A stretch of 34,015 nucleotides of DNA, from NCBI GenBank assembly GCA_016180645.1, contig JACPAV010000036.1:1-34015 (forward strand), given 5' to 3'. Within the stretch, counting starts at the first letter, position 1, and each line of letters opens with the position of its first letter. The notes below the pieces were generated by a model. The model was not told the origin of the DNA. It did no database searches and was given only the letters and a program-made list of their open reading frames with translations. The position numbers were made by a program, and so were the translations under genes. Of this stretch, positions 1 to 17,455 are shown piece by piece. This stretch comes from Nitrospirota bacterium. Lineage in GTDB: Bacteria > JACPQY01.

Positions 1-3000
1 GTTATTCGTCACGGCTACGTTCGGCGAAGGCGTGCCGTTGTAGTTGGCGTCGGTGCTGGTGGAACCTGAGAACACGATGGAGTAGGCGATGTTGCCATCC
101 TGAACCGCGTCATCCACGCCGGTGACCGTGACGGTCTGCGGACTGTTCCAGTTGAGATTCGTGAAGATGAGCGAGGCCGGGCCGACCGTGCCCTCGGTCG
201 TGTCGTTTGAACTGTAGTTGACCGTGACGTCCGCCGTGGGTGAGGAAGTCAGGGACACGGTAAAGGTGGCCGTCCCGCCCGCTTCGGTCGTGTTCCCGCT
301 GATTGTGCTCACGTTGTAGCCCGGCGTATCGTCGTCCGTGTTCGTCACGGAAACATCGACGGGATCGAGACCGTTGTAACTTGTGTCCGTGCTCGTCGCC
401 GCCCCCGTCGTGATCGTGTAGGCGATGTTCCCGTCCGCCGCGACGTCATCCACGCCGGTGACAGTCACCGTCTGAGGTGTGTTCCAGTCGGCGCTCGTGA
501 AGGTCAGGGAGACCGGGGAGACCGTGCCTTCGGTCGTATCCGTGCTGGAGAGGCCGATCGAGACGTTGGCCGTGGGTGGCGTGTTCAGGACCACCGTGAA
601 GGTCGCCGTGCCGCCCAGTTCGGTCGTGTTCCCGCTGATTGCGCCGACCGTGATTCCGGATGGGGCGATGGAGAAGTTTGCGTTCGAATCGTCAGCCGAA
701 CTGTTGCCGTAGGCGTCCGTGGCCGTGAGCCTGACGCGCACGGTGCTCGAGCTGATCGCGGGCACCGTCCACGTGTAGCTCCCATCGTTCGTTTCCCCGC
801 TCGCAATCGAGTTCAGGTAGCTGCCTCCGCTGTCCGTCGAATAGTCGAGGGCGAGGGTGAAGGCGCTCGCGTCGGTCAAGTCCGCGTTGTTCCACGTGAT
901 CGACCTACTCTGCCCTTGGGTCCACAGTTCGGCGCCATTGGGGGCGATCAGAGTGGAGATGAGAATCGATGGGGCGGCGATATCATTATTCAGAGCTGTG
1001 GGGGAGGACTGGTTCCCGACCGCGTCGGTGGCGGTGACATATAAGGAAGGGTTGGTATTGTCGCCGATGGCCGTGGCCCCGAAGGAGCCATCGGCCAGTG
1101 ATGTGACGGTCGTGATGAGTGATGTGAGAAGACCATCGGAGTAGATTTTGACGGTGGAATTGGCTTCGACGGCTCCGGCTGCTCCACCGACGGTATCATT
1201 CGTACCCGGTGTATTCTGGGTGACCGTCAGTTGCGCAGGGGCCGGCGCGGGAGGCGGAGTCGAGTCCACCGTCCACGTGTACGAGGCGGGCGACGGATCC
1301 GCGTTGCCCGCGGGGTCATTGGCCCGGACGGAGAAACTGCGAGGACCATCGGCGAGGCTACTGTACGCCTTGGGTGAGGCGCAGGTGCTGTAGGCGCCGG
1401 AATCGAGCTTGCATTCGAAAGTTGCGGCCGAATCGGGACTGTTGAAGGTGAACGACGCCGAGGTCTGATTGGTCAGGGATGAAGGCTGACCGCTGATGGA
1501 CGTTTCAGGGGCCGTCGTATCGAGCGTGACGGTTGCCGTCAGGCTTGAGGTGGCGTTGCCCAGGGAGTCGCGGAACCGGACGTAGACGGTGCGCGTTCCG
1601 TCGGCGCCGGAAGACAAGGTCCAAGGCTTGGAAGCGGAATAGGGCTCATAGGGTGAAAAGGACGTATTGTCGTTTGAGAACGCCATCTCGGGCGCGTCCG
1701 TCGCCGACAAGGTCAGCGTGACCGCCGTGGAGTTCACCGCCGCCGCCCCGGAATTGATCTTTACCGACCCGCCCGTCGGCGCGCTCGTCTTGACCGTCCA
1801 CGTGTACCCGGCGGGCGTCGGATCCACGTTGCCTGCGGCATCGGCGCCGCGGACAGTGAACGAATGAGGACCATCGGATAGGGGTCCGGAGATCGAGTGA
1901 GGAGAGGCGCAGGAGGAGGCCGGAGCAGAGTCGAGAGCGCATTGGAAAATGGCGGACGTATCCGGGGAGGTGAAAGTGAACGTCGCACTCGTCTGATTGC
2001 TGAGAGCTGATGGCTGAGAGCTGATCGCTGTATCGGGCGGCGCGGTGTCCACTGTCCACGTGAACGAAGCGGGAGTCGAGTCGATGTTTCCTGCTGCGTC
2101 CTTCGCCCGGACGTTGAAGGTGTTCGACCCTTCGACGGCGCTCAGGGTGAGCGGGGCGGTGCAGGCGGCGGCGGAAGCCGAATTCAAAGAACAGGCAAAG
2201 GAGCACCCCTCACCCCCGCCCTCTCCCCCAAGGGGCGAGGGAGAATTCTTATCGGAGCAGGAGAAAGAAAAGGTACCGGTGCCCTTGTTGCTCAGAACTG
2301 ATGGCTGAACGGTGATGGCTGTTTCGGGCGGGGTTGTGTCGACCGTCCACGTGAACAGGGCGGGAGTGAGATCCTTGTTGCCCGCCTTGTCGATGGCGGA
2401 GACGGAGAAGGTGTTCGACCCTTCGACGGCGCTCAGGGTGAGCGGGGAGGCGCAGGGCGACGGGGCGCCGGAGTTGAGGGAGCACGTGAAGGTTGATTCC
2501 GGCTCAGAACTGGTAAACTCAAAGGTCGCCGACGCCTGGTTGCTGAGAGCCGGCGGCTGAGAGCTGATCGCTGTTTCGGGCGGAGCGGAATCCTTCAGCG
2601 CCAGCTTGAACGGCACGGACAGCGGCGTGGGGTCCGTATTGCCCAGCGCGTCCGCCGCCTTCACCAGCAGGACGTGATCGCCATCGTCGGCCGCAGGAAC
2701 ATAGGACGCCGGGCAAACCCTGAAGGCTCCCCCGTCCAGCGCGCACTTGAACAGGCAGGCCGCCTTGTCGCATTTGAACACGAAGACAGAATCGGGCTTT
2801 GTCACCGTGCACGAGGTAGGGGCGGCGCCTGAACCGGTTTCCGCTCGACGTTTCGCCCCCAAGGGTGGCGCGCAGGGAGTGGAGATCAGCGTGGTGTCCG
2901 GTGGGTTCAGGTCCACTGCCTTCAGTTCGATCTTTACGTCCGCCGGCGCGGCGACGCCCGCTGCCTTGAAGTCGTCCTTCACTTTCTGATCGAGTTGAAC

Positions 3001-3981
3001 GCTCAGCGTCTCGAAAGCCACCTGCACTTGTTCATTGGTGAGCTTCTTGTTGTCCCCATTGGAGGCGGACGCAACCGCCTGCTGGAGAATGGCGGCCACC
3101 CCTCCGGGCTGGCCAGGCGATGCCGAACCCAGCGCCACCGCCACCGCCACCTCGGTCAAGGTGGACACACCGTCACCGTTCAGGTCGGGCAATTCCACTT
3201 CGTTCGTGTTGATCGTCGTCGGCTTGATGTCCAGGGTCAGAACGGGGGCGCCCGCCTTGCCGCCGGATGCCGTTGCATCGGCCTGCTGGACTTTCACCTC
3301 GACCGTGGTGGTGACACGAACATACTCCACATCCTGCCGCTGTCTCGACCGAACGCGCGTGCTGATCGCGTTCTGGCCGTCTTGCGCCGATTTCTTGGGA
3401 AGATCGAACGAGAGTTGGAAGACGAAAGCGGTCTGGCCGTCGTCCTCCACGGGCGGTTGGCCGCTTGCCTGCTTTCGCGCGGCAGCACCTCTCACGCCCC
3501 CTCTCACGCCTCCCCGAACCCCACCGCGGACGCCTGAAGCCTCGGCCCCTCTCACGCCCCCCCGCACGCCGCCTTGCTCCGATCCGCGGACCCCACCCCT
3601 GATGCCGCCCCGGATCCCGTCGGCCACAAGCTGATCGTTCACGTACACGTCGGCCACCACATCTTTGGAGTCCGCCGCCTGAATCCCGTTCAGCATCGCC
3701 GCCACCTCGGGGGAGAGCGGAATGTCCATGTCCATCGGTACCACGTCTTTTTTCGCCTCCGGCAGTTCGATTTTGCGCATGCAGGCGGGAAGGAAGGTGA
3801 GCAGTGAGCAGCAAGTGGTGAGGAGCAGGGCGAGAGTCGAGAACCGAGAACCGTGAACCGTGAACCGCGAGGAGTAGGGCGAGAGGCGCGAGGCGGGAGT
3901 CGTGAGCCGGGGAGAAACAAAAGAAGAAAAAGCAAAAGGAACGCGCGAGACTTCGCGCAGACTCAGCCCTGCCAACGACAT
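1..3981 (-). CDS. Modular surface lipoprotein A (C-terminus beyond window edge)
   Basis: The frame is open for 1327 codons from ATG 3981 to the left edge, with no stop. The lipobox LPAC puts the modified Cys at about residue 67, so the segment before it is unusually long, and a heptanucleotide array encodes part of it. The ATG at 3981 is chosen because it is the only ATG upstream of the lipobox and because a -35/-10 pair ends 6 bp before it. Next come a PLSPEVAAMLNG motif, a DQLVADG motif and G[VI]RG repeats. An EF-hand-type loop (DLNGDGVSTLTE, residues 266-277) follows, then about five Ig-like domains of the 'PDT..ATF.F...F.C.LD....C.SP....GS.TF' type. Further Ig-like modules and Calx-beta-like repeats (TVTGVDD, EGTV.P.SL.F) run to the edge. 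It is homologous in its N-terminal module to the lipoproteins at 5556 and 17050. It is probably exported and lipid-anchored; the ligand is unknown. Confidence 0.85.
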   Translation of the reverse strand, partial: MSLAGLSLREVSRVPFAFSSFVSPRLTTPASRLSPYSSRFTVHGSRFSTLALLLTTCCSLLTFLPACMRKIELPEAKKDVVPMDMDIPLSPEVAAMLNGIQAADSKDVVADVYVNDQLVADGIRGGIRGGVRGSEQGGVRGGVRGAEASGVRGGVRGGVRGGVRGAAARKQASGQPPVEDDGQTAFVFQLSFDLPKKSAQDGQNAISTRVRSRQRQDVEYVRVTTTVEVKVQQADATASGGKAGAPVLTLDIKPTTINTNEVELPDLNGDGVSTLTEVAVAVALGSASPGQPGGVAAILQQAVASASNGDNKKLTNEQVQVAFETLSVQLDQKVKDDFKAAGVAAPADVKIELKAVDLNPPDTTLISTPCAPPLGAKRRAETGSGAAPTSCTVTKPDSVFVFKCDKAACLFKCALDGGAFRVCPASYVPAADDGDHVLLVKAADALGNTDPTPLSVPFKLALKDSAPPETAISSQPPALSNQASATFEFTSSEPESTFTCSLNSGAPSPCASPLTLSAVEGSNTFSVSAIDKAGNKDLTPALFTWTVDTTPPETAITVQPSVLSNKGTGTFSFSCSDKNSPSPLGGEGGGEGCSFACSLNSASAAACTAPLTLSAVEGSNTFNVRAKDAAGNIDSTPASFTWTVDTAPPDTAISSQPSALSNQTSATFTFTSPDTSAIFQCALDSAPASSCASPHSISGPLSDGPHSFTVRGADAAGNVDPTPAGYTWTVKTSAPTGGSVKINSGAAAVNSTAVTLTLSATDAPEMAFSNDNTSFSPYEPYSASKPWTLSSGADGTRTVYVRFRDSLGNATSSLTATVTLDTTAPETSISGQPSSLTNQTSASFTFNSPDSAATFECKLDSGAYSTCASPKAYSSLADGPRSFSVRANDPAGNADPSPASYTWTVDSTPPPAPAPAQLTVTQNTPGTNDTVGGAAGAVEANSTVKIYSDGLLTSLITTVTSLADGSFGATAIGDNTNPSLYVTATDAVGNQSSPTALNNDIAAPSILISTLIAPNGAELWTQGQSRSITWNNADLTDASAFTLALDYSTDSGGSYLNSIASGETNDGSYTWTVPAISSSTVRVRLTATDAYGNSSADDSNANFSIAPSGITVGAISGNTTELGGTATFTVVLNTPPTANVSIGLSSTDTTEGTVSPVSLTFTSADWNTPQTVTVTGVDDVAADGNIAYTITTGAATSTDTSYNGLDPVDVSVTNTDDDTPGYNVSTISGNTTEAGGTATFTVSLTSSPTADVTVNYSSNDTTEGTVGPASLIFTNLNWNSPQTVTVTGVDDAVQDGNIAYSIVFSGSTSTDANYNGTPSPNVAVTNN
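1999..2033 (-). repeat. Heptanucleotide array in an Ig linker of lipoprotein A
   Basis: Units gctgaga, gctgatg, gctgaga, gctgatc and gctgtat encode the linker AISSQPSALSNQ. Related arrays occupy the same linker of neighbouring Ig domains at 2290-2324 and 2542-2576. Confidence 0.7.
2128..2156 (-). repeat. REP-like element, copy 1 in lipoprotein A
   Basis: CCCTTCGACGGCGCTCAGGG followed by TGAGCGGGG encodes LTLSAVEGS in an Ig loop. It is identical to the copy at 2419-2447. Confidence 0.65.
2205..2243 (-). repeat. REP-like element with CTCTCCC/GGGGCGAGGG arms in lipoprotein A
   Basis: CCCTCACCCC-type sequence followed by CCCTCTCCCCCAAGGGGCGA and GGGAG forms an imperfect hairpin. It encodes NSPSPLGGEGGGEG, which interrupts an Ig-like domain between FSFSCSDK and CSFACSL. 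Similar sequences are known as dispersed repeats in many proteobacteria (recalled, not searched). Confidence 0.65.
2419..2447 (-). repeat. REP-like element, copy 2 in lipoprotein A
   Basis: Identical to 2128-2156 and in the next Ig domain, so the two may have spread by domain duplication rather than by separate insertion. Confidence 0.65.
3797..3908 (-). repeat. Degenerate heptanucleotide tandem array, 16 units
   Basis: On the + strand, sixteen consecutive 7-bp units follow the pattern G-N-G-A-[GA]-N-C, for example gtgagca x2, gagaacc x2, gtgaacc x2, gagaggc and gcgaggc. The array lies inside the 5' end of lipoprotein A, just upstream of its lipobox, and is read in frame. Because 7 is not a multiple of 3, gain or loss of one unit would change the frame. 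Confidence 0.9.
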
Positions 3982-3987
3982 GCAACG

Positions 3988-4016
3988 TTTTTAGCAATCA
4001 CGCAATGTGATGTCAA
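3988..4016 (-). promoter_or_regulatory. Promoter of lipoprotein A, leaderless geometry
   Basis: On the minus strand TTGACA (4016-4011) is followed by exactly 17 bp and TAAAAA (3993-3988), then 6 bp and the ATG at 3981. The expected +1 falls on the start codon. The spacer contains an inverted repeat ATCAC-N5-GTGAT (3997-4011) that could be an operator. The -35 box is perfect; the -10 box matches 4 of 6. Confidence 0.65.
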
Positions 4017-4045
4017 GTGGTTTCTAAATATGTTTCTAATAGAAA

Positions 4046-4061
4046 TGTGATGTAGATCACA
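4046..4061. promoter_or_regulatory. CRP/FNR-family binding site (TGTGA-N6-TCACA)
   Basis: TGTGATGTAGATCACA matches both half sites of the CRP consensus. Its centre (4053.5) is 72.5 bp upstream of the predicted +1 of lipoprotein A, a position on the same helix face as class I CRP activation sites. No CRP gene is in the window; the regulator is inferred from the site alone. Confidence 0.6.
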
Positions 4062-4329
4062 ATCGGTTTTTTCCACGTATGTGCATGGACTTGGGATGTC
4101 CACATTCGGGCACCCGGCATGCGATGAAAAGTCATAAGCTGAAGCAGAGCATGAAGATTCGAGCCGGGTCCCGGACATTGACTTTGTGTCACTTCTCCGG
4201 CTCGGCGTTTCCGAGAAGCCTCCATCCTGCGCTACAAGTCCTACACGTCGGGAGTGTCGGGTTTTCTGCCCAAGGTGGTCATCGTCGGCGCCGGACATGG
4301 AGACCATGACTTACGTCAGGCGGCCTAAT
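4062..4329. other. Intergenic stretch without a recognisable gene
   Basis: No ORF here has a convincing start and ribosome site. A short + strand reading near 4272-4327 resembles a dinucleotide-binding start (VVIVGAGHG) but stops at once. The stretch lies between two CRP-like sites. Confidence 0.4.
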
Positions 4330-4351
4330 AATTGTGACGTAAATCACAATT
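4330..4351. promoter_or_regulatory. Second CRP/FNR-like site, perfect 8-bp arms
   Basis: AATTGTGA-N6-TCACAATT is a perfect inverted repeat with the CRP core TGTGA/TCACA. It lies between the end of the Ros-like gene and the upstream region of lipoprotein A, about 360 bp from the latter's start, so its target is unclear. It could serve an unrecognised small transcript in the 4062-4329 gap. Confidence 0.55.
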
Positions 4352-4444
4352 CAAATTTGTGAAGTTACTACGAGCACTTACGATGACAATGACCGGTGTC
4401 CACCAACATTGGGGGATTCCTGTGAGGAGCGCCTTGGCATGTGT

Positions 4445-5041
4445 CTATCGTTTCCGAACACGGGCATAGTCAAACCCCGCCGCGCGAATGGCTTTCTTGT
4501 AGGCTCCGAACCACTTGCGTGCCGCGTTGTAGAGGGCACTGTTCGATCGGCTGACCGCGTTGTCGTGGAGCGGAAGACCCCGCGCTTTGCATGCCCGCAG
4601 TGCTTCAACAACCTTTGAACGCGACCAAACGGGAGCCTTGCAAATCTTGTCGTAGTCGATTCCGGCCGCGCGGATGGCGGCCTTGTACGAGCCAAACCGG
4701 CCGGAAGCCGCGGCGTACAGACGACCCCCCTCAACTGTTGCGGTGAGCGCTCTCATGTTCAATGGTTGCCGCTCGCGCCATCGCTTGCGCAACTCTTCGG
4801 CAACCCGCTCCCTGGGCCAGATGGTCCGCCGTTCGGCGTCCTGGCGCCGGAGGGCTTCGGCCACGACGTGCTGCACTTCATACTCCTCCTTGTACTCTTG
4901 CGGGTCGACTTTGTGCTTGAAGTAGAGATGAGGGCTGAGATTGCGGTATCGACGTCGGCACATCAGGCACGTGACGAATTCCTCGGGCGTACGAGGCCGG
5001 GGATTGGGCAGGCCGGCATTCGAACTTCGGCGATGTTTCAC
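4445..5041 (-). CDS. Ros/MucR-type zinc-finger DNA-binding protein with two C-terminal repeats
   Basis: A 198-residue protein starting at GTG 5041, with GGAG about 12 nt upstream. Residues 25-43 read C-x2-C-x9-H-x4-H, the spacing of the prokaryotic Ros/MucR C2H2 finger, followed by a family-like PQEYKEEY. Two copies of a roughly 55-residue unit follow, each beginning with W-x-R-x-x-V and ending in FG-x-Y-K-x-A-I-R-A-A-G-[IF]-D-Y. This looks like a helical DNA-binding repeat, but I cannot name the family. Members of the Ros/MucR family are transcription regulators. The gene lies between lipoproteins A and B and could regulate them, but nothing in the sequence proves that. Confidence 0.7.
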   Translation of the reverse strand: MKHRRSSNAGLPNPRPRTPEEFVTCLMCRRRYRNLSPHLYFKHKVDPQEYKEEYEVQHVVAEALRRQDAERRTIWPRERVAEELRKRWRERQPLNMRALTATVEGGRLYAAASGRFGSYKAAIRAAGIDYDKICKAPVWSRSKVVEALRACKARGLPLHDNAVSRSNSALYNAARKWFGAYKKAIRAAGFDYARVRKR

Positions 5042-5182
5042 GGGATCACTTCTCCGTAGTCTCTAGGTCGGGGGAGAAGGCGGCGGGGGCGACGAGTCGG
5101 TCGCGGTACTCATTTTCCTCAGTATCCCGCCTGTGTCGGGTTTCGTCAACGAGCCCACGAGCTGCCGGATCGTCCCACGATC

Positions 5183-5252
5183 GGCGTGGAAAGGCTTTCT
5201 TGTGCGTCGAGCGGAGCCGCGAGGAGACGAGGGGGGAGTAGATGCGGGTCTG
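5183..5252 (-). pseudogene. Relic of the 3' end of a tyrosine recombinase gene
   Basis: The minus strand reads TRIYSPLVSSRL then RSTHKKAFPR, nearly the C-terminus of the intact recombinase at 25665-26660 (TRIYAPLVSSRL then RAAHKKAFPR), including the catalytic Tyr. The match also holds at DNA level. The stop codon of the parent is lost and homology ends at both sides, so no functional protein is expected. It is either a recombination scar or what remains of a decayed element. Confidence 0.7.
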
Positions 5253-5549: not shown

Positions 5550-5555
5550 AGGTCC

Positions 5556-8500
5556 ATGCTTGTTCGGCGGACGCGGGACGTTCTCCTCGCGTTCGTCGTG
5601 GCCCTGTCCTCGTCCGTGCTGATCGGTTGTTCCGCGTGCGACGGCAAGAAGGGCGACAGGTCGGTCGAGCTTGAGATCGGCCTGCCGCTCACACCTGAGC
5701 AGGCCGCGGCGTTGGAGGGCATCCGGGCCGGCGTGCGGGGCATCAGCCGGGTGGACGATCTGTCGCGTGTGGATGAGCTTTCGCGTGTGGACGAACTGAG
5801 CCGGGTTGATGAGATCAGCCGGGTGGACGAGATCTCCCGTGTGGACGAGGCTCTCCGAGGGGCTGCGGCCAACCTCCTCATCGACGACCAAGCCGTGGCG
5901 GAGGGCCGGCGCGGAGAAATCGTCTCCGGCGTGCGCACCGGCGTCCGTCTGGGCCGACGCGCCGCTCCGGGCCGTAAAGTCGTGAATGGGGAAGCACGGG
6001 AGGGACGCGCTCCGTTGCGTCCGCCCGACCGTCAGGGCCACGATGGAGCGTGGCTCTTCAGGGGTCACGATCTTGCGATCTCACGCAAGCAAGCGCCGGA
6101 AGCTCCCTCCTTCTCGTTTCATATCCTCGTCTCGATTTCGGAGAAGTTCCTCCACGCCGGCGAGAGGAGGCTTCGCCTTCAGGTCTTCCCTCCCGAGGAG
6201 CCGGAACTGATTCTGATCGACGTCCAGATGCCGCTCTCGGTGGAGGAGGAGAAGGGCAGGCCCGTCATCCCGGAGCAGGAGATCCCCGCCGAGCTTATTC
6301 AACTGCCCGACGGTGACGAGGACGGGGTATCCACGCTGGTCGAGACCATCACGGCCGGACCGGATTTCGCGCGAGACCCCGGCAAGAAACCCTCGGTTGA
6401 ACTGACACGAGGCATGCTCGTCCTGCTCGGCAAGAATCTGGGGCAAACCCTCCAGGCCGAACAGGGCATCACCGTGGAGGTTTCCATCGATCCCCAGGCC
6501 ATCACGCTCGATCCGCCGGAGACGGCGGGAGCCTACGTTCCGCCCGAACCGGGGACTCCCGCCGCTCAGCTTCCCCCGGGCGTGACGATTGTCGGCATCC
6601 CCACCACTTTCACCTTCTCCTGCTCCGGTACGGCCGGGACGGCCGCGTGCAAGTACGCGTGCTCCATCGACGGCGGCCCGTATTTCGGATGCGCTTCGCC
6701 TTTCACGTGGAAGTTCGACACGCCGGGAGAGCATCGGATCCAGGTCAAATCCGCTGACAACCTCGGCAATACGGACACCTCCCCCGTCGAGTTGATCGTC
6801 AATGTCCTCACCCCGGAGGTCGCCGCTGATCCCGAAGCCGTGAAACAGTACGACCTCCCGCCCAACACGATCATCTTCCAAGAGCCGCCGGCCGTAAGCA
6901 GTGAACTTTCAGCCACGTTCACCTTCACGTCTTCCGAGGTCAACACCACGTTCGAGTGCTCGCTCGATGGCGCTCCGTGGGCGGAGTGCTCAAGTCCGCT
7001 CGTCCTGAGCCTGTCGAAGGACGGCTCGCACACTTTCCGTGTCCGTGCCATCGACTCCGCGGGGCAAGCCGACCCCACACCCGCCACATACACCTGGACC
7101 ATCGACACCACCGCACTCGAAACGACCATCACCAGCGGGCCAACCGCCACCACCGGATTTACCTCGGCAACTTTCGAGTTTTCCTCTACAAGCCCTGGCG
7201 CCACCTTCGAGTGCTCCCTCGACGGAACAGGCTTTGCCCCGTGCACTTCCCCCCACTTGATCACTGGACCACTTTCTTCGGGCACCCACACGTTCAGGGT
7301 TCGCGCAAAGGCTGTTTCAGGAATCGTCGATCCCACACCCGCCACGTACACCTGGACGGTCAACACCACTCTCCTCGACACGACGCTCGCAGGGGCGGGC
7401 TTGCCCGCCCTCCTCACCACCCAGACGACGGCCACGTTCGAGTTCACCGCATCCAATCCCGCGGCCACGTTTGAATGCGAACTGGACGGGGGCGGGTTTT
7501 CGGCCTGTTCATCACCCAAAGCCTATTCCGGGCTCACGTCCGGTTCCCATACGTTCAAAGTGCGAGCGAAAGATACCTCCGGCAACCTGGACTCCACGCC
7601 CGCTTCCTACACATGGACCGTGGACGTGACACCTCCGACTTTTGCCGGACTTGCGACCGCCACGGCCGTCTCAACGACCCAGATCGACCTCGCTTGGACG
7701 GCGGCGACTGACAACGTGAGCGCCTCAAACAAGATCATCTATGAGATTTGCCAATCGACGACCTCCGGCACCTGCGCCACAACCTTCACCGCCACGTACA
7801 CCACCACTGCCGGCGCCATTTCCTATTCCGCTCAGTCCTTAGTCCTCAGCACTCAGTACTTCTTTATGGCCCGCGCCAAAGACGAACTCGGAAACCGCGA
7901 CACCAACACCACCGAAAACTCCGCCGCCACCCTCGGTGGCCCGCTACCTCCCGGCGGGAATGTCCAGGCCGTCGCCACCCATCTCGGCGATCACACCTGT
8001 TCTCTCATCTCGGACGGGACGGTCAAGTGCTGGGGGAACAACCTTTATGGTCAGCTTGGGGACGGAACAACCACCAATCGCCCAACGCCCGCCGGCGTTC
8101 CTTCACTGCCGAATGCTATCGCCATAGCTGGAGGGAACACTCACACCTGCGCGCTCATAGTGGGCGGGACCGTCAGGTGCTGGGGAGAAAACTCTTACGG
8201 TAAGCTGGGGGACGGAACGACCACCAACAAGTGGACGCCTGTTCCAGTGGCGTCTCTTTCCAACGCGGTCGGGATAGCGGGAGGGGGCATTCACGCCTGC
8301 GCACTCTTGGCGGACGGGACGGTCAAGTGCTGGGGAAGCAATAACTATGGAAACCTCGGGGACGGAACAACAGTAGACAAGTGGACCCCTGTCCCGGTGG
8401 CGTCCCTATCCAACGCCATCGGAATGGCGGGAGGGTACTATCACACCTGCGCACTCTTGGCGGACGGGACGGTCAAGTGCTGGGGATCGAACCAGTACGG

Positions 8501-10151
8501 TCAGGCGGGAGATGGAACAAGCCCCCCACCGCCAAGCAATGAAAAGAAACTGACACCGGTGGTCGTGAGCGCTCTCTCGAACTCCGTGACCATTGGCGTG
8601 GGAGGCTATCACACCTGCGCACTCTTGGCGGACGGGACGGTCAAGTGCTGGGGACGCAATAACTACGGGCAGATCGGGGACGGAACGACCACCAACAGGT
8701 TGGCTCCTGTCGCCGTGTCCGCGTTGAGTGCGGCTGTCTCGGTGGTGGGCGCGGGTGCGCACACTTGCGCCCTCTTTTCGAACGGGACGGTTCAATGTTG
8801 GGGATACAATCTTGAAGGTGAACTTGGGGATGGGACGACCGCCAACAAGTGGACGCCTGTCCCGGTGGCGTCTCTTTCTAACGCCATCGGGACGGCAGGA
8901 GGGACCGCTCACACCTGCGCGCTCATAGCGGACGGGACGGCAAGATGCTGGGGGTGGAATCCTTCCGGTCAGCTTGGGGATGGGACGACGGTGGACAAAT
9001 CGACGCCCGTGGCCGTCACGAATCTCGGCGGCCCGCTCGGCGTGAAACTCCCCCGTCTCCACGAGTCCACCGCCTCCGGCGCGCCGTCTCGCCCCTTCCG
9101 CGAAGGGCTTACGAACCACCTCGGCTATCACACCTGTTCCCTTCTCTCCGACGGCACAGTCAAATGCTGGGGACGCAATGGCTATGGCCAGCTTGGGGAC
9201 GGGACGCTGGTGCAAAAGACGACCCCGGTTGCCGTTTCCACGCTCTCCGGCGCCGTCGCCGTCACGGGAGGTCTCTATCACACCTGCGCTCTGGCCTCCA
9301 ATGGAACGGTCAAGTGCTGGGGACGCAACCTTTACGGCCAACTGGGCGACGGGACGACCACGGATTCGCCCACTCCTGTGGCCGTGATCTCCTTGTCGAA
9401 CGGCGTCGCCGTCACGGGAGGTTACTATCACACCTGCGCACTGGCCTCCAATGGAACGGTCAAATGCTGGGGATACAACTATAGCGGCCAACTGGGCGAC
9501 GGGACGTTCGCGCAGAGGACGACCCCGGTTACCGTTTCCACGCTCTCCGGCGCCGTCGCCGTCACGGGAGGCTTCGATCACACCTGCGCGCTGGCCTCCG
9601 ATGGAACGGTCAAATGCTGGGGATCCAACGATTCCGGCCAACTGGGCGACGGGACGACCACGGATAAGACGACCCCGGTTGTCGTCTCCACGCTCTCCGG
9701 CGCCGTCGCCGTCACGGGAGGTCTCGATAACACCTGCACGCTGGCCTCCGATGGAACGGTCAAATGCTGGGGATGGAACGCTAACGGCCAACTGGGCGAC
9801 GGGACGACCACGGATAAGACGACCCCGGTTGCCGTTTCCACGCTCTCCGGCGCCGTCGCCGTCTCGGGAGGTGACGAGCACACCTGCGCGCTGGCCTCCA
9901 ATGGAACCGTGAAATGCTGGGGATGGAACGCTAACGGCCGGCTGGGCGACGGGACGACCACGCAGAGGACGACCCCGGTTGCCGTTTCCACGCTCTCCGG
10001 CGCCGTCGCCGTCTCGGGAGGGAACGAGCACACCTGCGCGCTGGCCTCCGATGGAACGGTCAAATGCTGGGGACGCAACACTTACGGCCAACTCGGCGAC
10101 GGGACGACGATCACCCGCCTCACCCCCGTCGCCGTGACGAACCTGCCGTGA
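5556..10151 (+). CDS. Modular surface lipoprotein B with 14 RCC1 blades
   Basis: A 1531-residue lipoprotein with the lipobox LIGC at Cys25. The shared N-terminal module has LPLTPEQAAALEG, then six SRVDE[LI]-type hexapeptides where the paralogues have GVRx repeats, then DQAVAEG. An EF-hand-type loop (DGDEDGVSTLVE) spans residues 252-263. About four Ig-like domains (F.C..DG....C.SP..GSHTF.VRA.D) and one fibronectin-like domain follow. From about residue 803, fourteen RCC1 units (HTCAL--DGTVKCWG-N--GQLGDGTT) run to the C-terminus. They are split 7+7 by a linker near residues 1157-1190, which suggests two seven-bladed beta-propellers. RCC1-type propellers mediate protein or ligand binding; the cargo here is unknown. 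ATG 5556 fits the lipobox and the promoter geometry. Confidence 0.9.
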   Translation: MLVRRTRDVLLAFVVALSSSVLIGCSACDGKKGDRSVELEIGLPLTPEQAAALEGIRAGVRGISRVDDLSRVDELSRVDELSRVDEISRVDEISRVDEALRGAAANLLIDDQAVAEGRRGEIVSGVRTGVRLGRRAAPGRKVVNGEAREGRAPLRPPDRQGHDGAWLFRGHDLAISRKQAPEAPSFSFHILVSISEKFLHAGERRLRLQVFPPEEPELILIDVQMPLSVEEEKGRPVIPEQEIPAELIQLPDGDEDGVSTLVETITAGPDFARDPGKKPSVELTRGMLVLLGKNLGQTLQAEQGITVEVSIDPQAITLDPPETAGAYVPPEPGTPAAQLPPGVTIVGIPTTFTFSCSGTAGTAACKYACSIDGGPYFGCASPFTWKFDTPGEHRIQVKSADNLGNTDTSPVELIVNVLTPEVAADPEAVKQYDLPPNTIIFQEPPAVSSELSATFTFTSSEVNTTFECSLDGAPWAECSSPLVLSLSKDGSHTFRVRAIDSAGQADPTPATYTWTIDTTALETTITSGPTATTGFTSATFEFSSTSPGATFECSLDGTGFAPCTSPHLITGPLSSGTHTFRVRAKAVSGIVDPTPATYTWTVNTTLLDTTLAGAGLPALLTTQTTATFEFTASNPAATFECELDGGGFSACSSPKAYSGLTSGSHTFKVRAKDTSGNLDSTPASYTWTVDVTPPTFAGLATATAVSTTQIDLAWTAATDNVSASNKIIYEICQSTTSGTCATTFTATYTTTAGAISYSAQSLVLSTQYFFMARAKDELGNRDTNTTENSAATLGGPLPPGGNVQAVATHLGDHTCSLISDGTVKCWGNNLYGQLGDGTTTNRPTPAGVPSLPNAIAIAGGNTHTCALIVGGTVRCWGENSYGKLGDGTTTNKWTPVPVASLSNAVGIAGGGIHACALLADGTVKCWGSNNYGNLGDGTTVDKWTPVPVASLSNAIGMAGGYYHTCALLADGTVKCWGSNQYGQAGDGTSPPPPSNEKKLTPVVVSALSNSVTIGVGGYHTCALLADGTVKCWGRNNYGQIGDGTTTNRLAPVAVSALSAAVSVVGAGAHTCALFSNGTVQCWGYNLEGELGDGTTANKWTPVPVASLSNAIGTAGGTAHTCALIADGTARCWGWNPSGQLGDGTTVDKSTPVAVTNLGGPLGVKLPRLHESTASGAPSRPFREGLTNHLGYHTCSLLSDGTVKCWGRNGYGQLGDGTLVQKTTPVAVSTLSGAVAVTGGLYHTCALASNGTVKCWGRNLYGQLGDGTTTDSPTPVAVISLSNGVAVTGGYYHTCALASNGTVKCWGYNYSGQLGDGTFAQRTTPVTVSTLSGAVAVTGGFDHTCALASDGTVKCWGSNDSGQLGDGTTTDKTTPVVVSTLSGAVAVTGGLDNTCTLASDGTVKCWGWNANGQLGDGTTTDKTTPVAVSTLSGAVAVSGGDEHTCALASNGTVKCWGWNANGRLGDGTTTQRTTPVAVSTLSGAVAVSGGNEHTCALASDGTVKCWGRNTYGQLGDGTTITRLTPVAVTNLP
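6996..7024 (+). repeat. REP-like element read in frame in an Ig-like domain
   Basis: The segment contains GTCCTGAGCCTGTCGAAGGA, the reverse-orientation form of the CCTTCGAC...GCTCAGG element at 2128, 2419 and 15356. It encodes VLSLSKDGS at the same Ig-loop position where those copies encode TLSAVEGS or TLSTVEGS. Confidence 0.6.
7393..7410. repeat. GC-rich palindrome in coding sequence
   Basis: GGGCGGGC-tt-GCCCGCCC encodes part of AGAGLPALL at the start of an Ig-like domain of lipoprotein B. An identical stem occurs at 15499-15516 in lipoprotein C, at the equivalent protein position (VGAGLPALL). Confidence 0.7.
7831..7865 (+). repeat. Heptanucleotide array in the fibronectin-like domain of lipoprotein B
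   Basis: Consecutive units ctcagtc, cttagtc, ctcagca, ctcagta and cttcttt encode AQSLVLSTQYFF in frame. The array belongs to the same class of degenerate 7-bp repeat seen in lipoproteins A and C. Confidence 0.6.
9190..10151 (+). repeat. 150-bp tandem repeat encoding the second RCC1 propeller
   Basis: Blades 8-14 are nearly identical at DNA level with a 150-bp period; the segment CACGCTCTCCGGCGCCGTCG recurs from 9239 at multiples of 150 bp. Blades 1-7 are much more divergent, so the second propeller looks recently amplified or homogenised. Confidence 0.8.
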
Positions 10152-10395: not shown

Positions 10396-10420
10396 CTACG
10401 AAGAGAGGGTAAAAGATGTC

Positions 10421-11917
10421 TCACTTGAGCGTCACAAATAGAAGCACAGCCGCAGTGAGCCCATTCTGCATTAGGAGAATGGGTTTTTCCCGGTAGACCT
10501 TGGCATTGACTGCGATGAACTGAAGCGCGCCAATCGGCAGAAACGTCCAGCCCAGCCCGTTCCGACCGATTATCCAGAAAGCCGCGGCATGCGCAATCGC
10601 CACGGCGATGGCGGCAACACGCTGGGCCCTTCGAAGTCCCAAAACGGTCGGAAGATTACGGATGCCTGCTGCCTTATCCCCCTCTACGTCTTTCAGGTCG
10701 ATCAGGTAAGCACCGAGCGTGAACCACGCGAAGATCGCGCCGACGTAGCCCACCGGCGCGGAAAAGTTTCCGCTGTAGAGGGAGTAACCGACCAGGAAAG
10801 CGCTTACGCTGCTGATGCCGATGACGACCTTGGAGAGCACGCAACGTTCTTTGAGCCGTAGGGGAGGCGCCGAATAGACGAAGTAGGCCAGACCGAAAAG
10901 CAAAGTCAACATCACGACCAAGACACCGGCCGACAGCGCCAAGGCCAGCGCCGCCAGGAGCACCCACCGCGAGACCCGGACGTATCGAACCGGGTCAACG
11001 GAGCCTTTCACAAGCGGTCGATGGGGTTCGTTGACGCGATCGATCTCAATGTCGTACACGTTGTTGACCATGACCGAGTAAATCCAGATCAGCCATATGG
11101 CGCAGAACGCAAGGACGGCCCGCAGCCCTAGCTCGATCCCTTGCGCCGGCAGGGCGGCGGGCGATGCTGCCGTGCCTAGAAAAAACAAGAGCTCGTAATG
11201 GACGATTCTCAGGAAGCGCGTGTCTTTGAGTATCTCCCGCACAAATGCGGGGGCCTCGATCGTACAGACGGCCAGCGTCTCAATGCCGACCATCAGCGCG
11301 AAAATCAGGGGCATCTCCTTGAACCCCGTCGCCTCCCTGCCGGCCGGGCCGGCCAGCCAGTCCAAATAAACGGGAATCGAGACGAAGAAGAACATGAGCG
11401 TATAAGAGGCAACCATCCCTGCGATAGCTCTTGGCCACGATCGCGTCGTCGCTTGAACGTACAGGAACGTGAGCAGGCATATCAGCCCGATCTCGACGCG
11501 CATTCCCAGACTGATGCCCTTGGCCGCGAGCGGCCCGAAGAAGGTCAGATAAGCGTGCAGGAGGGCCTGAATGTCCTTGACGCGCAGGTAGTCGTAATGG
11601 GGGGTGTGGCTTGCGAAGAGGGTCGAGTCGAGAATAGGAGGCAGGAGCGTTACGATCAGACCCGCAAAGATGAGTCTCAAAAGCTTGACGACCTGCTGGC
11701 CGGTCAAAGCATGAACGATCAGGCCGAGCGCCATGGCAAGAGCGAGATAGAACAGCACATAATGAGCCAACTGGATGGCGCTCAGCGTATATCCCTCGCG
11801 ATAAACCTCCAGAAAGGTGCGGAGAAGGACGAAGAACAGGAACCCCGCAAAGGAGTAGGCCAACGGGAGCGACGACTCTGAAAATCTGGCCGTAAAGCGG
11901 CTAAGCCACTCGTTCAT
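10421..11917 (-). CDS. UbiA-family prenyltransferase with an extra N-terminal membrane domain
   Basis: A 498-residue polytopic membrane protein. The C-terminal half is UbiA-like. NNVYDIEID (about residues 284-292) is the first Asp-rich motif, followed by RVNEPHRPL, and DLKDVEGD (about 405-412) is the second. These bind the Mg-prenyl diphosphate in the family, which transfers prenyl chains to aromatic acceptors in quinone, heme or lipid synthesis. Typical members are about 300 residues; here some 220 N-terminal residues add about six hydrophobic segments that I do not recognise. ATG 11917 is preferred over a longer in-frame start at 11980 because AAGGG lies 13 nt upstream and the extension is polar and arginine-rich. 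The acceptor cannot be told, since no quinone genes are nearby. Confidence 0.8.
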   Translation of the reverse strand: MNEWLSRFTARFSESSLPLAYSFAGFLFFVLLRTFLEVYREGYTLSAIQLAHYVLFYLALAMALGLIVHALTGQQVVKLLRLIFAGLIVTLLPPILDSTLFASHTPHYDYLRVKDIQALLHAYLTFFGPLAAKGISLGMRVEIGLICLLTFLYVQATTRSWPRAIAGMVASYTLMFFFVSIPVYLDWLAGPAGREATGFKEMPLIFALMVGIETLAVCTIEAPAFVREILKDTRFLRIVHYELLFFLGTAASPAALPAQGIELGLRAVLAFCAIWLIWIYSVMVNNVYDIEIDRVNEPHRPLVKGSVDPVRYVRVSRWVLLAALALALSAGVLVVMLTLLFGLAYFVYSAPPLRLKERCVLSKVVIGISSVSAFLVGYSLYSGNFSAPVGYVGAIFAWFTLGAYLIDLKDVEGDKAAGIRNLPTVLGLRRAQRVAAIAVAIAHAAAFWIIGRNGLGWTFLPIGALQFIAVNAKVYREKPILLMQNGLTAAVLLFVTLK

Positions 11918-12004
11918 ATGCCTGATGCCCTTGCGTGCTGCTCTGAGCGTACAGGCCCGCGGGGATCCTTCACGTGTCAACGCGTGGAGGACCCTGGGGG
12001 GGTC

Positions 12005-15000
12005 TCACTGCCCGCCGGTGGTGGTCTTGAGGACGGTGCCGCTCTCGCCGACGGCGTAGCCGGTGCTTCCGTTTCCGGGAAATTGAACGCCACGAAGAAG
12101 TACGGTTGTCCCGGACGTCTGGCTTATCCAGTTCCCCCCGCCGTCCGTCGTCTTAAGAATCGTCCCACTAGCTCCCACAACGTAGCCGGTGTTCGCATTG
12201 ATGAAATAGACGCCGTAAATCGCAGACGTCGTACCGGACGTTTGCGACGACCACGCGGTGCCGCCATCGGATGTCTTCAGGATCGTGCCGCTGTCCCCGA
12301 CCACGTATCCCGTGGTCGCATCCACCGGGAAATGTATCGCCCGGAGCAGATTTGTCGTGCCCGAGGTCTGGGTCTGCCACACATTGCCGCTGTTCGTGGT
12401 CCGGATGATGGTCCCGCTTACCCCCACGGCAAAAGCCGATGTTGACGTCGCAAACTGGATGGCGTTGAGTTGATTACTGGTTCCCGAGCTTTTGCTGACC
12501 CAGCTTGCCCCGCCGTTTGTCGTCTTATAGAGCGCGCCGCTCGAACCCACGAACCAGCCGGCGGTCGTATCAAGGAAATGAACACCATAGAGGGTGTTGC
12601 TGATCGCCGGGGACTGGTCGGTCCAGCCCGTTCCTCCATCGGTCGTCTTGAGAACCTTGCCGGAAGCGCCCACGGCCCAACCTGTTGTGGTGTCAACGGG
12701 AAAGTGCATATCGTAAAGATCGGTCGTAATACCTGACGATTGCGCAGCCCATGTACCACCGCTATCCGTAGTCTTGATGATTGTCCCAGAGGCGCCCACG
12801 GCATATCCGGTTGCGCTCACGGGGAAGTGAACTGCATAGAGAATCTTTCCGGTTCCGGCTGTCTGATCCGCCCAGCTTGTGCCGCCGTTGGTGGTTTTCA
12901 GCGCCGTCCCGTCTACACCCACAATGTATCCCGTTGTCGCGTCTACAGGAAAATTCGCACTCCACAAATCGGATGTTGTGCCGGACGTCTGGGCAGCCCA
13001 AGTGGCCCCGCTGTCCGTCGTCTTGTAGATCTTTCCACCGGTCCCTGCGATGTACCCGGTTGTTGTGCCTCCCACGAATCGAACGGTATAGAAATCGGTC
13101 GTTGTGTTCGGCGAATCCTGAGCGGACCAATTCGTCCCGCCGTCCGTCGTTTTGAGGACCTTCGAGGGATTTGTGCATGCCCAGCCGCAGGAGGTAGACA
13201 AAGTCACCGCGTACCCCGTGGTTGCGTCCACGGGGAAGTGGACGGAGTAAATTGGCATTGTGGTCCCGGAGGTTTGGGCCGTCCAGGTGGCGCCGCTGTT
13301 CGTGGTCTTGAGAATCGTGCCGCTGCCACCAATGGCGTACCCCGTGGTTGCGTCCACGGGGAAATGCACGCCTTCCAGGAAGTTCGTTGTCCCGGAGGTT
13401 TGGGCCGTCCAGGTGGCGCCGCTGTTCGTGGTCTTGAGAATCGTGCCGCTGCTTCCGACCGCGTAGCCCGTCGTCGCGTCCACGGGGAAATGGACGCCGT
13501 ACAGGTTGTTTGTTACCCCGGAGGTTTGGGCCGTCCAGATGGCGCCGCTGTCCGTTGTCTTGAGAATCGTGCCGGTGTTGCCGACCGCGTAGCCCGTCGT
13601 CGCGTCCACGGGGAAATGGACAGCGTAGAGACGATTGATGGTACCGGATGCTCCGCAGGTAACCGCCCAGGTTGCGCCCCCATCCGTCGTCTTGAGGATC
13701 ATTCCCCGGTCGCCGACGCTGTAGCCGGTCAGGTTGTTCACAAAATGCGTGCCGTATAGCGTCATTCCCGTAGGCTTCCGTTGCACTTCGGCCCAGGAGC
13801 CGGCCGGGCACGTGGGAGGGGCAACGGGGGCCGCGCTGACCTGCACCGTGTTGGTTTCCACATTCCCGGCTTCGTCGACTGCCCGAACGACAAAGTAGTA
13901 GGTCGTGCCCGTTGTGAGGCTGTCCACCCCGTAACTCACGGCACCGGCCGCCGTGGTGTAGGTGGTCGTAAAGGTCGTCTGGCACGTGCCGGTGGTGGTG
14001 GATTGGCAGATTCGATAAATTATGGCTGCGCTTGCGCTCACGGCGTCGGTGGCGGCCGTCCAGGTGAGGTTGATCCGAGTGGCGGAGGCGGAGGCCGCGG
14101 ACGACGCGCCGGAGAATGTGGGAGGCGTTGTGTCTACAACTACGGTCACGCCGTTGGAGGCGGTCCATGCGGCGATCTGGCCAAGCGTATCGACGGCGCG
14201 GACGCAGTTGTAGTACGTTGTGCTGGCCACCAAGCTAAGACTCGTGGTTGTCTTCGATGTGACCAGTGCTACGTCTGTAGTGGCGACGATATTCCCCGCG
14301 CAAGCGGTTGTCGTGCTCAAATTGTAATCATACCGCTGGAGCCCGCTTCCCGCGTCGCTGAATCCGCTCCAATTGACGTTCATGGTGGTGGTGGAAGACT
14401 GCGAGGAGACATCGGCTCCCGTACCATCATTAACGGTTCCGGTAGCCGGGGCCGCGGTGTCGCAGGTTCTCGTGACCGCTACGCCTCCGCCGGTATTGCC
14501 CGCGGCATCGGTGGCGGCCATGTTGAGCGTCAAGGTTTCGCCGTTCGCGCACGCGATCGCCGTTTTGGAGCATGTACCCGAGGAAAACGCGGCCGCCGCC
14601 CACTCCGTGTCGCACGCGCCGTCCGTTGATTTGCAGTATTGGCAACTCGTGATGCTCGATCCCGAATCTGAAAAAGCCGCCGAGAGATCGAAAGAGCCGT
14701 CCACGTGGGTGGCGGTGGCCGTGTTGGCCGGGGTGACGGTTCCCGCCACCGGCGCGCCGATATCGATCGTCCACGCGGTCGAGGCGGGGGAGGCGTCCGT
14801 GTTGCCCGCGGCGTCCTTCGACCTCACCTGGAAAGTGCGGGAGCCCGCCATGAGACCGGAGTACACCTTGGGAGACGCGCACGCCGAATAGCCGCCCGAG
14901 TCGATTTCGCATTCGAACGTTGCGCCGGAATCCGGGGCGCTGAAACTGAACGACGCGGATGTGGTGTTCGTGGGGTTGGGCGGCTGGGCGGTGATCGACG

Positions 15001-17050
15001 TGTCCGGGGCGGTCAGATCCACCGTCCAAGTATGGGAGGCAGGCGTAGCGTCTGCGTTCCCGGCAGCATCGACGGCGCGCGTACTGAAGCTGTGAGACCC
15101 TTCTGCCAGCGAAGTGGGTGCTGTGAAGGGCGATGAGCAGGCGGCGTACGCGGCCGAGTCGAGCTTGCACTCGAATCTAGCTGTGGATTCCGGCGACGTG
15201 AAGGTGAACGAGGCCGTGGTGGAGTTGGTCGGGTCGGTCGGCTTGCTGGTGATGGAGGTATCCGGCGGGGTCAGATCGACGGTCCACGTGAAGGTCACGG
15301 GGGTTGGATCCTTGTTCCCGGTCTTGTCCACGGCGGCAACGGAGAAGGTGTGAGACCCTTCGACGGTGCTCAGGGTGACAGGGGACACGCAGGAGGAGAA
15401 GGCGGCAGAGTCGAGGGAGCACTGGAAGGAAACGGGCGCGGACGGATTGGAATCCGTCCCTACGAATTGGAACGTGGCGGAGGTTTGGTTGGTCAGGAGG
15501 GCGGGCAAGCCCGCCCCTACGAGGGATGTATCCGGAGGCGTCTTGTCGCAATCGGCCGGGCAGGAGGCCTCGGTCTCGCCCGCCTCGCACACCTTGTTGC
15601 CGCAGACAATGGCCGGAAGTACCGTGAATTTGATCTCCGCGGGCGTCAGGTCCTTGTTGCCGATGGCGTCAGCGGCCTGCACACGAAGCGTGTGGTCCCC
15701 AGGGCTCAGGGTTCGGGGATCAGGGGTCAGGGGAGAAGCGCAGGGGGCAAAAGAGGCGCCGTCCAGGGAGCAGCGGAAGGCGCAGAAATTTTCATTGCAC
15801 GTCAGGGTTAGGGTGATTTGTTCTCCGCTCTTGATTGACGCGCCACTCGCCACTGGCAACGCGCCACTCACCGCGCTCAGCGCGGTGTCGGGCGGCGTCA
15901 AATCGACCGGCTTCACCTCTACGAGTGTTTTCACCCCTTGATCGGCGAGCTCCTTTTGGAGATTCTGAGCGAAGGACGCGGAGACGGCCTGGGCTTGTTC
16001 CTCCGTAGGCTTCTGGGCCGGGTCCTGGGCAACCTGAAGGGCCTGTTGTATCCCTGCTTCCTTCGCGATCACGGCCAACTCCACCAATGTGGAGACTCCA
16101 TCGCCATCGACGTCGGGGAGAACCACGTCGTTCAAGGCGATAGGCGTTTCTTCGATTTCGATCTCGAAAGCAGGGGTCAGGGCTCCGGGATCAGGGGTCA
16201 GTCCGGAGTCCGGCCCGCCTTGCTGATCCCCGACCCCTGAACCCTGAACCCTTAACTTCACTGTGGTTTGGACTTCGATGAGGGTTGTGGTCGCGTCCGT
16301 CGCGGGCCGAACGCGGGTGGTCAGCGTGTACAAGCCATCGGATGCCAGGGCGATCGGCAGATAGAAAGTGATCTCCATGCCCAGCGCGAGCGCATCCTGC
16401 GCTTGCCGTTTCACGCACCCTCCGCAGCCATCCCTGGCGCTCCGGGTACGGTCAGCCGTCCTGGCACCATGATTCGTGAATCGTGAATCGTCAGGAGCGG
16501 CCGTACCTGCCGCATTGTCTTGCGCGTCACTCATCACGGACCACTCGCCACTTCTTCGGGGTGGGGCCCCCGGGAGTCCCTTTCCGCCGCCGATGGCCGC
16601 GCGGACGCCCGTCCGAACGCCGGCTCGAATCCCCGTGCGAACGCCGGCGCGCACGCCTTCGGCAACTACTTGATCGTTCCACAAGATGTCTGCCGCTAAT
16701 CCGTCTTCGACCACCGCGCGAACGCCATCCTGCTGACCGGCGCGTACCCCTTGCTCAGTCCCGGCGCGCACGCCCTGTTCTGTCTCGGCACGAATGCCGT
16801 CTGTTGCAATCGTCCGAACCCCTGCCCGCACGCCCGCACGCACGCCTTCAAGGAGCGCCGCCTGCTCCGGCGTAAGCGGAATGCCGACGATTACTTCGAT
16901 CGAATCGTCCGGAATGTGATGAGAAGATTTTTTCTTCTTGTTGGAGCAGGACGAAACAAGCAGAATCGTGAGTGAGGCGAGCAGCAACGCCCATGCGAAC
17001 CCCGAGACCCTCCACGGCCGTACGATCTGGCCCTCCATTGTAGACCTCAT
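12005..17050 (-). CDS. Modular surface lipoprotein C with 14 YCF48/BNR-like blades
   Basis: A 1681-residue lipoprotein with lipobox VSSC (Cys35). The N-terminal module has GIPLTPEQAALLEG, about twelve G[VI]R units (partly as 8-residue GVRAxxxx repeats), DQVVAEG, and a canonical EF-hand loop (DVDGDGVSTLVE, residues 313-324). Ig-like and fibronectin-like domains follow. From about residue 1087, fourteen units of the form LY-VHFPVDATTGYAVG-SGTILKTT-GG--W fill the C-terminus. The last unit stops at TTTGGQ, and its missing Trp strand seems to be supplied by PAGSWAEVQ before the first unit, a velcro-type closure. Fourteen blades suggest two seven-bladed propellers. ATG 17050 overlaps the stop of the upstream small gene as ATGA, with GGGGTGG upstream. 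GTG 17059 and ATG 17038 are alternatives. Confidence 0.9.
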   Translation of the reverse strand: MRSTMEGQIVRPWRVSGFAWALLLASLTILLVSSCSNKKKKSSHHIPDDSIEVIVGIPLTPEQAALLEGVRAGVRAGVRTIATDGIRAETEQGVRAGTEQGVRAGQQDGVRAVVEDGLAADILWNDQVVAEGVRAGVRTGIRAGVRTGVRAAIGGGKGLPGAPPRRSGEWSVMSDAQDNAAGTAAPDDSRFTNHGARTADRTRSARDGCGGCVKRQAQDALALGMEITFYLPIALASDGLYTLTTRVRPATDATTTLIEVQTTVKLRVQGSGVGDQQGGPDSGLTPDPGALTPAFEIEIEETPIALNDVVLPDVDGDGVSTLVELAVIAKEAGIQQALQVAQDPAQKPTEEQAQAVSASFAQNLQKELADQGVKTLVEVKPVDLTPPDTALSAVSGALPVASGASIKSGEQITLTLTCNENFCAFRCSLDGASFAPCASPLTPDPRTLSPGDHTLRVQAADAIGNKDLTPAEIKFTVLPAIVCGNKVCEAGETEASCPADCDKTPPDTSLVGAGLPALLTNQTSATFQFVGTDSNPSAPVSFQCSLDSAAFSSCVSPVTLSTVEGSHTFSVAAVDKTGNKDPTPVTFTWTVDLTPPDTSITSKPTDPTNSTTASFTFTSPESTARFECKLDSAAYAACSSPFTAPTSLAEGSHSFSTRAVDAAGNADATPASHTWTVDLTAPDTSITAQPPNPTNTTSASFSFSAPDSGATFECEIDSGGYSACASPKVYSGLMAGSRTFQVRSKDAAGNTDASPASTAWTIDIGAPVAGTVTPANTATATHVDGSFDLSAAFSDSGSSITSCQYCKSTDGACDTEWAAAAFSSGTCSKTAIACANGETLTLNMAATDAAGNTGGGVAVTRTCDTAAPATGTVNDGTGADVSSQSSTTTMNVNWSGFSDAGSGLQRYDYNLSTTTACAGNIVATTDVALVTSKTTTSLSLVASTTYYNCVRAVDTLGQIAAWTASNGVTVVVDTTPPTFSGASSAASASATRINLTWTAATDAVSASAAIIYRICQSTTTGTCQTTFTTTYTTAAGAVSYGVDSLTTGTTYYFVVRAVDEAGNVETNTVQVSAAPVAPPTCPAGSWAEVQRKPTGMTLYGTHFVNNLTGYSVGDRGMILKTTDGGATWAVTCGASGTINRLYAVHFPVDATTGYAVGNTGTILKTTDSGAIWTAQTSGVTNNLYGVHFPVDATTGYAVGSSGTILKTTNSGATWTAQTSGTTNFLEGVHFPVDATTGYAIGGSGTILKTTNSGATWTAQTSGTTMPIYSVHFPVDATTGYAVTLSTSCGWACTNPSKVLKTTDGGTNWSAQDSPNTTTDFYTVRFVGGTTTGYIAGTGGKIYKTTDSGATWAAQTSGTTSDLWSANFPVDATTGYIVGVDGTALKTTNGGTSWADQTAGTGKILYAVHFPVSATGYAVGASGTIIKTTDSGGTWAAQSSGITTDLYDMHFPVDTTTGWAVGASGKVLKTTDGGTGWTDQSPAISNTLYGVHFLDTTAGWFVGSSGALYKTTNGGASWVSKSSGTSNQLNAIQFATSTSAFAVGVSGTIIRTTNSGNVWQTQTSGTTNLLRAIHFPVDATTGYVVGDSGTILKTSDGGTAWSSQTSGTTSAIYGVYFINANTGYVVGASGTILKTTDGGGNWISQTSGTTVLLRGVQFPGNGSTGYAVGESGTVLKTTTGGQ
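15356..15384 (-). repeat. REP-like element in an Ig-like domain of lipoprotein C
   Basis: CCTTCGACGGTGCTCAGGG and its flank encode VTLSTVEGSHTF on the minus strand. The copies at 2128-2156 and 2419-2447 encode LTLSAVEGSNTF in lipoprotein A at the same position of the domain. Confidence 0.65.
15440..15459. repeat. Palindrome of the 10260 type, inside coding sequence
   Basis: GGACGGAT-tgga-ATCCGTCC followed by CTACGA has the same 8-bp stem, four-base loop and flank as the intergenic hairpins at 10260-10350. It encodes VGTDSNPSAP within an Ig-like domain of lipoprotein C, where neighbouring domains have short linkers such as TSSEPES. Confidence 0.75.
15499..15516. repeat. GC-rich palindrome in coding sequence of lipoprotein C
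   Basis: GGGCGGGC-aa-GCCCGCCC followed by CTACGA encodes VGAGLPALL. It is the counterpart of 7393-7410 in lipoprotein B. Confidence 0.7.
15702..15736 (-). repeat. Heptanucleotide array in lipoprotein C
   Basis: The + strand reads gggctca, gggttcg, gggatca, ggggtca and ggggaga in succession. On the minus strand it encodes LTPDPRTLSPG in frame. Confidence 0.7.
16173..16257 (-). repeat. Two heptanucleotide arrays in lipoprotein C
   Basis: The first array (16173-16214) has ggggtca, gggctcc, gggatca, ggggtca, gtccgga and gtccggc. The second (16223-16257) has ctgatcc, ccgaccc, ctgaacc x2 and cttaact. Together they encode a Gly/Pro-rich linker upstream of the EF-hand loop. Confidence 0.7.
16471..16491 (-). 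repeat. Heptanucleotide array near the N-terminus of lipoprotein C
   Basis: Units gattcgt, gaatcgt and gaatcgt encode DDSRFTNHG in frame, downstream of the GVR repeats. Confidence 0.6.
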
Positions 17051-17378: not shown

Positions 17379-17455
17379 CGATAGATGGGCATAGAGACGC
17401 ACGAATGTCCTCAATGGACAATCCAAGCAGATTGATGTAAGGTGCAGCAAGTTTG

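Follow-up and report, generated by a model that had tools for sequence, protein, structure and literature searches.

Predicted lipoproteins with one shared N-terminal module and evolutionarily interchanged beta-propeller heads in Candidatus Figaniota

Bacterial beta-propellers, RCC1 and VCBS types among them, are commonly amplified, as described for the RCC1/BLIP-II and FG-GAP/VCBS groups (PMC9218822). In fungi, the HNWD/NLR receptors, e.g., het-d/het-e of Podospora, combine a constant part with a domain of near-identical repeats or propeller blades; a few codons on the binding face are hypervariable and positively selected, and the domains are assorted combinatorially (PMC4986451, PMC12222747). 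The plant photoreceptor UVR8 has the RCC1 fold, with R286, D96, D107 and R146 acting as salt-bridge or dimer-interface residues (PMC5091643). Polymorphic toxins join a shared constant N-terminus to an exchangeable C-terminus (PMC3482391), and surface proteins of Leptospira feature OmpL47-type Ig domains (NF047446). The locus described here comes from Candidatus Figaniota (JACPQY01), a groundwater lineage represented by two genomes of 3.29-4.72 Mb and 60.8-64.6% GC (PMC11382960).

The window, i.e., the whole stretch of DNA that was analysed (34,015 nt), is contig C36 of a genome (G000) of 4.72 Mb in 65 contigs with a completeness of 97%. Three long open reading frames encode the predicted lipoproteins A, B and C, which share the N-terminal order of the original prediction: lipobox, PL[TS]PE-x-AA, DQ-x-VA-[ED]-G, a beta-rich part and LPD-x-[DN]-x-DGVSTL-x-E. 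They probably belong to an expanded family of outer-membrane lipoproteins displaying interchangeable, diversifying binding heads. The features of the three genes are as follows.

1..3981, minus strand: lipoprotein A, 1327+ aa, with signal peptide, Cys67, N-module, Ig-like stalk and Calx-beta-like repeats; open at the contig end
2887..3783, minus strand: N-module of A, from the lipobox Cys to DLNPPDT
3487..3618, minus strand: G[VI]RG repeat of A, a region predicted disordered in two homologues
3151..3192, minus strand: EF-hand/TSP3-like loop LPDLNGDGVSTLTE of A
5556..10151, plus strand: lipoprotein B, 1531 aa, with N-module, Ig-like stalk and RCC1 head
5628..6533, plus strand: N-module of B
5748..5849, plus strand: hexapeptide repeat of the RVDELS type within the module of B
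6303..6344, plus strand: EF-hand/TSP3-like loop LPDGDEDGVSTLVE of B
7959..10148, plus strand: RCC1 head of B, 14 blades, interpreted as two 7-bladed propellers
9030..9110, plus strand: conserved linker GVKLPRLHESTASGAP-RPFREGL joining the two RCC1 propellers of B, also present in L044, L054, L056 and L071
12005..17059, minus strand: lipoprotein C, 1684 aa, with N-module, Ig-like stalk, fn3-like domain and YCF48 head
15875..16948, minus strand: N-module of C, subject of the first AlphaFold2 model
16079..16120, minus strand: EF-hand/TSP3-like loop LPDVDGDGVSTLVE of C
12008..13807, minus strand: YCF48/Asp-box head of C, 14 repeat units

The alignment of the N-terminal segments extends beyond their low-complexity parts. 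B and C match with a BLASTP E-value of 1.8e-26 with or without SEG masking, and A and C with 5e-26 (1.8e-13 after masking); A and B reach 1.5e-9, of which masking leaves short motifs only. The module was originally said to belong to no named family, and this holds in Pfam and NCBIfam, where no model covers the N-modules of A, B and C. Likewise, a Pfam search with 33 members returned no credible match, only low-complexity or sub-threshold ones. The module comprises approximately 200-250 ordered residues plus a disordered Arg/Gly-rich insert. A confident AlphaFold2 model of a short member (pLDDT 86.9, pTM 0.85) features strands, helices and a disordered insert holding the G[VI]RG repeat. A Foldseek search of the PDB with an N-module model gave nothing at E<=0.001, the matches being weak and of a generic Ig-like kind. 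Besides, the linkers and leaders of the modules (window 2887-3783 and others) contain the strings SRFTVHGSRF, GEGGGEG and GASSDAGIKPA, which resemble translated intergenic repeat elements inserted into genes.

The loop LPD-x-[DN]-x-DGVSTL-x-E is near invariant among the members and lost in L049, L052 and L056. It follows the EF-hand/TSP3 pattern (D-x-[DN]-x-D-G-x6, with Glu at position 12) in most members and possibly holds Ca2+. Of the calcium module that had been proposed, the EF-hand/TSP3-like loop stands, and the putative Ca2+ role is read from this loop, which some members have lost. A hydrophobic stretch precedes the cysteine in all 36 members, 26 of which comply with the strict lipobox pattern. 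In E. coli, Asp at position +2 of lipoproteins causes retention in the inner membrane; this residue occurs there in only 2/36 members. Exposure on the surface of the outer membrane is presumed, the lipobox-like cysteine being silent on outward orientation. The Ig-like stalk scores above the cut-off of NF047446 and far below the cut-off of the OmpL47 equivalog.

A profile built from A, B and C, followed by fetching of the full regions, revealed 25 N-module genes with a lipobox-like cysteine in the genome of the window, beside 2 further diverged genes on contig C41. The sole other genome of the same family (G001) holds 11 N-module genes and a truncated one. The family thus counts 36 genes in two genomes (25 + 11), excluding the diverged pair and the truncated gene. 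No N-module was found outside the phylum: 288 further genomes gave none, and a profile scan of contigs matched only contig JACPQY010000057.1 of G001, a groundwater metagenome-assembled genome. The anchor module, previously uncharacterised, is widespread within a phylum represented by two genomes. The expectation of one constant N-module with many different C-termini is borne out by these 36 genes, which carry at least five families of heads.

C-terminal heads are readable in 28 of the 36 genes, and all 28 are beta-propellers: 16 RCC1, 5 Kelch, 5 FG-GAP, 1 NHL and 1 YCF48, with representatives assigned by Pfam, other RCC1 heads by motif counts, and L087 (FG-GAP), L089:15711 and L092 (both Kelch) by motif. 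L048 combines NHL and Kelch. As for the other genes, A, L040, L045 and L091 are cut at contig ends and the remainder stop early with no propeller. The 14 RCC1 units expected in B were recovered by Pfam (418 bits, above the curated cut-off), the best solved relative being UVR8 (E 9e-59), and complete RCC1 heads are mostly interpreted as two propellers with the conserved linker between them. Similarly, Pfam PSII_BNR (186.6 bits vs a cut-off of 27) and the unit count confirmed 14 YCF48 units in C; an assignment to YCF48 proper, the photosystem II assembly factor, was rejected at 193.7 bits for NF010237 vs 326 for the equivalog. The Calx-beta ending proposed for A was dropped, as Pfam found no Calx-beta in A or in the tail of a paralogue and the reading frame is broken by the contig end. 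This frame runs open to window base 1, and the C-terminus of A is hence absent from the assembly. RCC1 heads were also found on lipoproteins with unrelated CarboxypepD_reg N-termini, and thus heads move independently of the N-module. In addition, L062 (10420-17001) encodes a subtilase (S8) that resembles a lipoprotein and contains RCC1-like units besides PKD and Ig domains, placing propeller units near an enzyme too.

The tree of the modules was built from 187 structured module columns, and many of its inner branches are weak. Head type changes 11 times on this tree (minimum 4; mean after shuffling 11.2), and the starred branches alone call for at least 3 changes each for RCC1, Kelch and FG-GAP. 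The hypothesis that a head type arose only once is rejected by AU tests for Kelch (p 0.0023), FG-GAP (3e-48) and RCC1 (8e-55). After removal of the longest rows, 8 changes remain and 6/200 shuffles are equally low, which indicates some clustering of head type. The clearest swap is that between the sister modules L046 (NHL) and L047 (RCC1), supported at 100/100; their DNA is 70.6% identical over 1091 nt, beyond which the similarity fades through the stalk and the heads differ. L049 (Kelch) and L087 (FG-GAP) are sister modules as well (support 98/96). The tree changes, the AU tests and the L046/L047 pair together demonstrate that the interchange of heads is real over evolutionary time. As shown by phylogeny, unrelated families of predicted propellers replaced each other many times on one module. 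The cassette system envisaged at first is retained in so far as heads were swapped in evolution, uncoupled from the phylogeny of the module; a mechanism of active switching was not found.

The RCC1 blades arose by recent amplification of near-identical units, and their framework is conserved. In B, framework codons differ synonymously only, and the positions marked in GG[X][X]HTC and CWG[X]N[X][X]G almost solely non-synonymously. Across 265 blades of 32 open reading frames, blade positions 3, 4, 20, 22 and 23 reach an entropy of 3.1-3.6 bits and favour Tyr, Ser, Asn, Asp, Gly, Arg and Trp. Among blade pairs of 85-90% identity, pN is 0.54 at the variable positions vs a pS of 0.15 in the remaining blade. 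With the positions picked on B only and then applied elsewhere, the ratio lies above 1 in 11 of the 12 genes that had no part in this choice. Moreover, codon positions 1 and 2 of the five sites differ at 0.57-0.61, compared with 0.09 for framework third positions. Kelch and YCF48 heads follow the same pN/pS pattern in small samples, strong gene-by-gene evidence being confined to RCC1. The variable positions align with W285/R286, W233/R234, W337/R338, D96 and R146 of UVR8, with D107 in the adjoining loop, an alignment that places them on the dimer face of UVR8. As a separate observation, the third base of the variable codons in the genome of the window is near-fixed (NNC or NNT) with bases 1 and 2 near random, a pattern resembling targeted mutagenesis.

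The same positions also vary in a control set of 106 RCC1 blades from other phyla (L099-L126), with a similar Tyr/Ser/Asp/Asn/Gly-rich composition. This variability is therefore not special to the N-module family, and the variable face appears to be a surface that varies in predicted bacterial RCC1 propellers in general. The strength of selection is poorly comparable across phyla, as most of the other sets have few or no close pairs. Both the control and the frequency of propeller amplification in bacteria (PMC9218822) are compatible with ordinary domain accretion, by which repeat-rich lipoproteins acquire readily amplified propellers with no role in recognition. Nevertheless, such accretion is unlikely: a single fold class occupies all readable heads despite five sequence families, the excess of changes at codon positions 1 and 2 over framework third positions is unlike drift or relaxed constraint, and the variable sites coincide with the interface known from UVR8.

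The propellers might alternatively serve as outer-membrane receptors for solute capture, like surface lipoproteins feeding TonB transporters, instead of recognising other cells, and BtuG, a surface propeller lipoprotein for vitamin B12 uptake, provides a precedent. Diversification at a protein-protein face better suits macromolecular partners, however, and no partner transporter turned up in the window, which renders this function improbable.

Even less weight is given to targeted hypermutation by a diversity-generating retroelement or a similar system, despite the third bases near C or T (position 4: 55% T vs 14% T gene-wide) and the near-random bases 1 and 2 that it would explain. A search for reverse transcriptase (PF00078) found none in the 97%-complete genome and gave matches in three control genomes, while framework adenines beside the variable codons (Asn21, His5) stay fixed; the heads were accordingly rejected as targets of a diversity-generating retroelement. 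Furthermore, Trp, Gln and Lys codons occur at the variable sites, and third bases change there 2.4 times faster than framework ones.

The surroundings of the lipoprotein genes feature regulators and recombinases:

17453..22648, plus strand: Ser/Thr kinase-AAA-TPR-GAF-sigma54 fusion regulator, divergent neighbour of C
17321..17335, minus strand: perfect sigma-54 -24/-12 match upstream of C, weak on its own
22944-23933 and 25665-26660: two tyrosine recombinases flanking a gene with HTH and Peptidase_M78 (ImmA/IrrE-like)

The fusion regulator has 6 full-length paralogues in the genome, at least 4 of them near N-module genes. A family-wide sigma-54 promoter was rejected, as the site is perfect only at C and most others score like shuffled sequence. 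The recombinase pair with the HTH/Peptidase_M78 gene is possibly a mobile element beside the lipoprotein cluster. At L041 (6212-13561), an upstream serine recombinase gene runs stop-free and in frame into the lipoprotein reading frame. The 281-nt leader and signal peptide of L041 are 94% identical to those of L047; a common promoter/leader cassette was dismissed, since this leader occurs in two genes only, with short matches elsewhere. Recombinases close by and the layout of a constant N-terminus with swapped C-termini recall polymorphic toxins (PMC3482391), yet a system of exchangeable toxic C-termini is scarcely credible here, as the heads consist of propellers, the readable C-termini that were scanned gave no toxin domain and the scanned neighbours showed no immunity-gene pattern.

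The favoured interpretation is thus a lipoprotein family with interchangeable, diversifying binding heads. The N-module would anchor the stalk at the outer membrane and space it, and the propeller face with the five variable positions would bind partners, which could be proteins or glycans carried by other cells, by phages or by particles. The recognition target may in turn drive the diversification of the heads. Adhesion, kin or prey recognition and a function as phage decoy are possible roles. Such a family offers a natural platform with five propeller families as interchangeable heads on one uncharacterised anchor module. It also allows a connection between surface recognition and the recent amplification of propellers, which is an open question in protein evolution, to be tested: the variable residues are identified, lie on an interface face that is already known and are found again among RCC1 proteins of other phyla. 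More tentatively, and with somewhat less than even confidence, the genes might form a bacterial variable-receptor repertoire that recognises other cells or phages. It would comprise dozens of constant-anchor surface lipoproteins, with propeller heads passing from gene to gene and strong positive selection diversifying the contact residues.

In comparison with known systems, the Leptospira OmpL47-type Ig domains resemble the stalk only, the N-module and heads being unrelated. Polymorphic toxins share the constant N-terminus and exchangeable C-terminus, which here carries binding folds and no toxin domain. UVR8 resembles the head of B and its dimer face aligns with the variable positions, but it is a eukaryotic photoreceptor that has no lipoprotein anchor. 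The amplified bacterial propellers involve the same families and the same blade amplification; in contrast to these, many head families are found here on one new anchor in one genome, uncoupled from the phylogeny of the anchor. The fungal HNWD/NLR proteins are intracellular STAND receptors with WD40/TPR/ANK repeats, whereas the family of the window consists of predicted lipoproteins with Ig stalks, five propeller families and no signalling domain. The logic of a variable-receptor repertoire would be like that of fungal NLR repeats or of vertebrate variable receptors and, if true, would represent a bacterial counterpart to the hypervariable repeat receptors of fungi.
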